From contig JALORV010000118.1 of assembly GCA_025458735.1 (NCBI GenBank), positions 1-13,065 of the forward strand: a stretch of DNA of 13,065 bases, written 5' to 3'. The notes beneath the pieces were generated by a model. It did not search any database and was not told the DNA's origin. It saw only the letters and a program-made list of their open reading frames with translations. Position 1 is the stretch's first letter. Each line of letters begins with the position of its first letter. Source of the stretch: Burkholderiaceae bacterium. GTDB taxonomy: Bacteria > Pseudomonadota > Gammaproteobacteria > Burkholderiales > Burkholderiaceae. Below, piece by piece: positions 821 to 2,079 of the stretch. A program made the position numbers and the translations under genes.

Positions 821-2079
821 TCAGCGCAGGTTGTAGTAGGCGCCGCGGCCGGGGTAGCTGGCGATGTCGCCGAGGTCTTCCTCGATGCGCAGCAGCTGGT
901 TGTACTTGGCGATGCGGTCGGAACGGCTCATCGAGCCCGTCTTGATCTGCATCGCATTGGTGCCCACGGCGATGTCGGCAATGGTCGAGTCCTCGGTTTC
1001 GCCCGAGCGATGGCTGACCACGGAGGTGTAGCCGGCGCACTTGGCCATCTCGATGGCGGCAAAGGTCTCCGTCAGCGTGCCGATCTGGTTGATCTTGATG
1101 AGGATCGAGTTGGCCACGCCCTTGCGGATGCCTTCGCGCAAAATGGCGGCATTGGTGACGAAGACATCGTCGCCCACCAGCTGCACGCGCCGCCCAAGCC
1201 GCTCGGTCAGCGCGGCCCAGCCGTCCCAGTCGTTCTCGGCCATCCCGTCCTCGATCGAGACGATCGGGTACTTCTCGCACCAGGTCGCCAGCATGTCGAT
1301 CCAGCTGGCCGGCGTCAGCACCAGGCCTTCGCCGTCGAGCCGGTAGGCGCCGTCGCGATAGAACTCGCTGGCGGCGCAGTCGAGAGCCACGGCCACCTGC
1401 GAGCCGGCGGCGTAGCCGGCGGCATCGATGGCCTGCAGGATCAGCTGGATCGCCGCCTCGTGGCTGGCCACGTTCGGGCGGTGCTCATGCCGTTGCCGTC
1501 GATCAGCTTCTTCAGCGCGTGGAAGACCTCGGCGCCGCAGCGCACTGCCTCCGAGAAGCTCGCCGCGCCGACCGGCACGATCATGAATTCCTGCAGGTCG
1601 AGGCTGTTGTTGGCGTGCGCGCCGCCGTTGATCACGTTCATCATCGGCACCGGCATCGACATCGCCCCACTGCCGCCGAAGTACCGGTACAGCGGCAGCC
1701 CGGCCTCCTCGGCCGCCGCCTTGGCCACCGCGATCGACACCGCCAGCATCGCATTGGCACCGAGCCGGCCCTTGTTCTCGGTGCCGTCGAGTTCGATCAG
1801 CGAGCGGTCGAGGAAGGCCTGCTCGTTGGCCTCGAGGCCCATGACCGCCTCGGAGATCTCGGTGTTGATGTTCTCCACCGCCTTGAGCACGCCCTTGCCG
1901 CCGTAGCGGCCCTTGTCGCCGTCGCGCAATTCGATCGCCTCGCGCGAGCCGGTGGAAGCGCCCGAGGGCACCGCCGCCCGGCCCATGACGCCGGACTCGA
2001 GCAGGACGTCGCACTCGACGGTGGGGTTGCCGCGCGAGTCGAGGATCTCGCGGCCGATGATGTCGACGATGGCTGACAT
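821..2079 (-). pseudogene. eno: Enolase, frameshifted by an internal 25-nt deletion
   Basis: Enolase converts 2-phosphoglycerate to phosphoenolpyruvate. The N-terminal 200 residues (start 2079, [18 protein letters not shown]) and the C-terminal 218 residues (from 1477, [12 protein letters not shown]) are both canonical but lie in different frames. Between GMST and PNVAS the conserved AVGDEGGFA segment is missing. The frame entered from the start shifts at about 1476-1479 and stops at 1441. The coding span is 1259 nt; adding 25 gives 428 codons, or 427 residues, the usual family length. The lost segment carries the Glu annotated as proton donor in E. coli enolase (Glu209). In restored numbering the Mg ligands D242, E285 and D312, the catalytic K337 and HRS 365-367 are all present. 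RBS GGAAG precedes the ATG. The gene sits 41 nt after DUF1330 and 3 nt before ftsB. Assembly error or a recent mutation is the likely cause. Confidence 0.93.
1475..1480 (-). other. Deletion junction inside eno
   Basis: On the coding strand the codons for M-S-T are followed by GC and then directly by CCG AAC GTG (P-N-V) in another frame. One Ala codon end plus eight codons, 25 nt in all, are absent relative to the family. The exact breakpoint is ambiguous by about one base because C residues flank it. Confidence 0.85.

Follow-up and report, generated by a model that had tools for sequence, protein, structure and literature searches.

Does a bacterium whose enolase gene appears without the codons of its catalytic glutamate truly do without that enzyme, or is the sequence wrong at this point? 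The question is raised by a contig of 13,065 nucleotides from a Burkholderiaceae bacterium, which was analysed over its full length and is referred to here as the window. The window has a GC content of 68%, and its nearest relatives among the loci that we fetched belong to Burkholderiales or Betaproteobacteria assemblies. By near full-length match to the eno gene, the closest genomes are G001 (the metagenome-assembled genome BroJett031), G002 (CP070661, bin78), G032, G039, G041 and G042, with 81-84% nucleotide identity; the eno gene of G037, which runs off the end of its contig, also shows 84% nucleotide identity. A literature search returned no paper that combines enolase, pseudogene, frameshift and metagenome-assembled genomes, nor did the papers listed by further searches bear on this case.

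The eno gene is split at its catalytic segment

The eno gene lies on the minus strand from position 2079 to 821, alongside genes of the same strand that appear from their sequences to be pyrG, kdsA, a DUF1330-like gene and an ftsB-like gene; Pfam was used to test the identities of two genes, eno and the phosphodiesterase gene described below. It measures 1259 nt, compared with 1284 nt for the relative that matches it end to end (G039, C66:30647-31930), and no single open frame spans it. The first piece (1477..2079) begins with an ATG at 2079 and encodes residues 1-201, which end in NGMSTA and are followed in the same frame by 11 residues foreign to enolase and a stop codon. The second piece (821..1477) lies in another frame and encodes 218 amino acids, residues 210-427, from PNVASH through YYNLR to the stop codon. 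The frames differ across the junction 1478/1477, placed to within about one base, where 25 nt are absent (VGDEGGFA plus one base), as judged from an alignment with 12 relatives and from comparison with the intact enolase record P0121. An earlier note on this DNA had described 200 and 218 codons in different frames that meet at about 1476-1479, and had calculated that 25 added nucleotides would give 427 residues. The junction lies within that range, and all of these counts hold.

Both enolase domains are present, although divided between two frames. The first piece matches Pfam Enolase_N (E=1.9e-59) and the start of Enolase_C, and the second matches Enolase_C (E=3.9e-89), so that the assignment as an enolase is not a matter of chance. 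With both domains, the usual neighbour kdsA and identity to P0121 elsewhere, the gene resembles that of a bacterial enolase (phosphopyruvate hydratase; PF03952 + PF00113), but as printed it differs by the absence of the GDEGG segment and by the broken frame. The disappearance of this segment, also claimed in the earlier note, is evident both in the alignment of the relatives and in the comparison with P0121. Its Glu is presumably the proton donor of the enzyme (Glu209 in E. coli), and solved enolases show GDEGG at the position that is lost here. Enolase matches were obtained for 125 loci, 123 of which span at least 400 residues and reduce to 113 distinct sequences; the motif reads VGDEGGFA in 109 of these, VGDEGGFT in three and LADEGGLS in one, a divergent paralogue. 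In the alignment with the 12 chosen relatives, there is a single 25-nt gap at the site and it occurs in the window only; the nearest records are intact.

Intact records of the same enolase

Protein database searches, in each of which the 8000 best candidates were scored and the best 120 listed, retrieved a counterpart of the window enolase without the lesion. P0121, a 427-residue enolase recorded in both NCBI and JGI sources, on five contigs that could derive from few samples, carries VGDEGGFA and matches the first window piece over residues 1-201 and the second over residues 210-427 without a single difference (419 of 419 residues). P0122 and P0123 are also intact and differ from P0121 by one and two residues, respectively. 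P0125 (413 amino acids, NCBI source, on a contig of 8198 bases) corresponds to P0121 minus 14 residues near the start, a clean internal loss at a different place. Among the matches listed, the motif is present in all 120 enolase records of the search that returned P0121, and in 105 of the 119 other records of a search whose length limits favoured fragments; in this second set, 11 records end before or at the motif and three (P0049, P0072 and P0105) stray from it there in other ways. The junction seen in the window was found in none of these 239 other enolase records (119 + 120, matches listed), and the lesion is thus not shared with any other member of the lineage among them. Its absence elsewhere is as compatible with an error that arose once as with a mutation that arose once.

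The identity to P0121 also confirms the claim that the rest of the gene is undecayed. The ratio pN/pS of the second part of eno is slightly raised in the window, at 0.25-0.39 between the window and intact relatives against 0.21-0.33 among the relatives themselves. Since intact P0121 has the same residues, the rise does not point to decay that followed the lesion, and relaxed selection on eno was rejected for the same reason.

The gene might still be expressed if ribosomes shifted frame or hopped at the junction and so produced a working or altered enzyme. Both frames have been kept, but this would likewise be expected after any recent loss, and we found nothing else in favour of such expression. 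Since the DNA itself lacks the catalytic segment, no trick of reading would restore it, and the junction does not recur among the records scanned. We give this explanation a vanishingly small probability.

A second gene with the same kind of break

The window contains a second lesion of like kind, which the earlier note did not mention. It lies about 4.5 kb from that of eno, in a glycerophosphodiester phosphodiesterase gene that adjoins pyrG on the minus strand (6039-5150). The first piece of this gene (5953..6039) extends from the start codon to residue 29, resembles a signal peptide by eye and ends in FDLQAHR. The second piece (5150..5953) resumes at 5953 with ETDLAM in another frame and encodes residues 55-321 and the stop codon, with a Pfam GDPD match among the residues from 5938 on. 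At the junction (5953..5954), 76 nt are absent, which amount to 25 residues, RGxxPENT among them, and one further base, as judged from the relative L025 and the record P0241, both of which have these 25 residues between the two pieces. P0241 (321 amino acids, NCBI and JGI sources) is intact, and its remaining 296 residues (1-29 and 55-321), which correspond to the two pieces, show no difference from the window. The motif HRGxRGxxPENT is found in 117 of 120 phosphodiesterase proteins among the matches listed; of the other three, two begin downstream of it and one carries a variant form. The gene therefore resembles that of a glycerophosphodiester phosphodiesterase (PF03009) in having most of the domain and in its identity to P0241 elsewhere, but differs, as printed, by the absent RGxxPENT and the broken frame. 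The losses of 76 nt and 25 nt are both a multiple of three plus one.

Two such losses thus fall within one 13-kb contig, and nothing similar is seen in the 13 other genes of the window that were compared. Compared with up to 10 or 12 of the best relatives per gene, these genes show no frame break, and at most 4 residues are missing at any one place, apart from two differences near the C-terminal end, each against one relative: the pyrG product lacks 7 and 4 residues compared with L015, and the IclR-type regulator lacks 8 compared with L124. In L025, pyrG changes frame near its start relative to the window (opposite window positions 4849-4851). Taken together, the intact records P0121 and P0241, and the different loss in P0125, indicate that the lineage is not fixed for these lesions, which vary between records. 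Intact and otherwise identical copies, as expected of an artefact, exist for both genes.

Second enolases in relatives and a possible real deletion

If one strain or sub-population had truly undergone a deletion, very recently, its enolase would be inactive, and the organism would then depend on a divergent second enolase or on growth substrates that feed metabolism from either side of the block. Short deletions do arise in nature, and second enolases are indeed found in related bacteria. An Enolase_C match is present in 63 of the 67 genomes of the family to which G001 belongs, and seven of the 67 (G002, G023, G024, G026, G032, G039 and G066) have a second near full-length match, that of G024 with an internal stop; a divergent second enolase occurs in three of the six closest relatives with a near full-length match (G002, G032 and G039). 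A real deletion with a back-up is therefore conceivable. The second enolase-like protein of G066 shares 50% identity with P0121, reads LADEGGLS at the motif and is changed at other usually conserved places, which leaves it a putative enolase and weakens the case for such a back-up.

The divergent enolase-like proteins are located at L163 (G066, C169), in G002 (C1:139734-140582), in G032 (C225) and in G039 (C66:70446-71267). Related assemblies likewise contain broken enolase genes: the one at L161 (G066, C86) is missing some 67 codons from the region of residues 67 to 135 and has an altered frame, and that at L162 (G058, C1) changes frame near residues 32 and 297.

A deletion of very recent date in eno would need to be matched by another of the same age in a second gene: two separate events within 13 kb, with neither protein otherwise changed and with intact forms of both in existence. 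As inspected on the intact proteins, either junction allows for at most about 2 nt of homology at its ends, a point against slippage between direct repeats; this candidate mechanism was rejected. On balance, we regard a real deletion as improbable. A living strain that has just lost its enolase through a 25-nt deletion and relies on a second enolase of the LADEGGLS type, or on a split central metabolism, is more improbable still.

Two genomic blocks meet in the window

The window could also be a chimera of two genome regions, with the lesions as part of a generally poor contig. The block of eno, kdsA and pyrG (with the phosphodiesterase gene in G001) is separate in relatives from the block that extends from the Nudix gene (6127) to the IclR-type regulator; the two are found at about 1.57 Mb and 0.14-0.15 Mb in G002, on C2 and C8 in G001, and on C66 and C105 in G039. 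At about 6040-6127 of the window, these blocks meet, through either a real rearrangement or a chimeric join. The base composition is even along the window, however, the gene order may truly differ in this organism, and neither lesion sits at the block boundary. We consider a chimera unlikely, and it would add to an explanation by assembly error rather than replace it.

Discussion

We conclude that both lesions are very probably sequencing or assembly errors in the contig, a judgement that draws on the assembled sequence and its database relatives. Because two unrelated genes are hit, the remainder of each is identical to the matching part of an intact protein and the losses vary between records, the simplest cause would be that stretches were dropped when the contig was made. 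The break in eno is thus confirmed as an observation but most likely has no biological reality. The earlier note had offered either a wrong sequence or an organism with another enolase or a very unusual glycolysis; the first is favoured by the identical intact enolase on five contigs and by the like loss in an unrelated gene, whereas the second gained no support.

According to this explanation by error, the organism would have a normal eno gene in its usual place beside kdsA, from which a stretch of 25 nt would have been lost during contig building, and 76 nt would have been lost in like manner from the phosphodiesterase gene about 4.5 kb away. We infer that coverage of the lost stretches was poor or their sequence difficult to read, that the sequences on either side were connected directly, and that the enolase of the organism is an ordinary one. 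When stretches of the gene are ranked in nine relatives, the counterpart of the one missing from eno in the window belongs to the top 12% by GC content and to the top quarter by DNA folding energy in seven; in the other two it ranks lower. This would fit poor coverage, if weakly. A break caused by k-mers shared with other species at the most conserved DNA was also considered. The 25-nt stretch of eno ranks 200-373 of 1257 for conservation, and that lost from P0125 ranks 445 of 1240; as other parts of the gene are more conserved than the lost stretch, this cause is unsupported.

Spurious pseudogenes that arise from assembly have been documented in isolate genomes (Cooley and Wright 2024, PMC11017572), and its authors place metagenome assemblies outside their assessment. 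The window resembles those cases in that a conserved gene, otherwise intact, has its frame broken by a loss while near-identical sequences carry it unbroken; the difference is that the study deals with isolate genomes, whereas the window is judged from assembled sequence.

Clean short losses that remove catalytic segments and break reading frames can thus occur in contigs of this kind, here twice in 13 kb, and call for caution; a large database that contains the same protein in intact form exposes them quickly. For the organism itself, a false lead is removed: taken at face value, the contig would suggest a bacterium without enolase.
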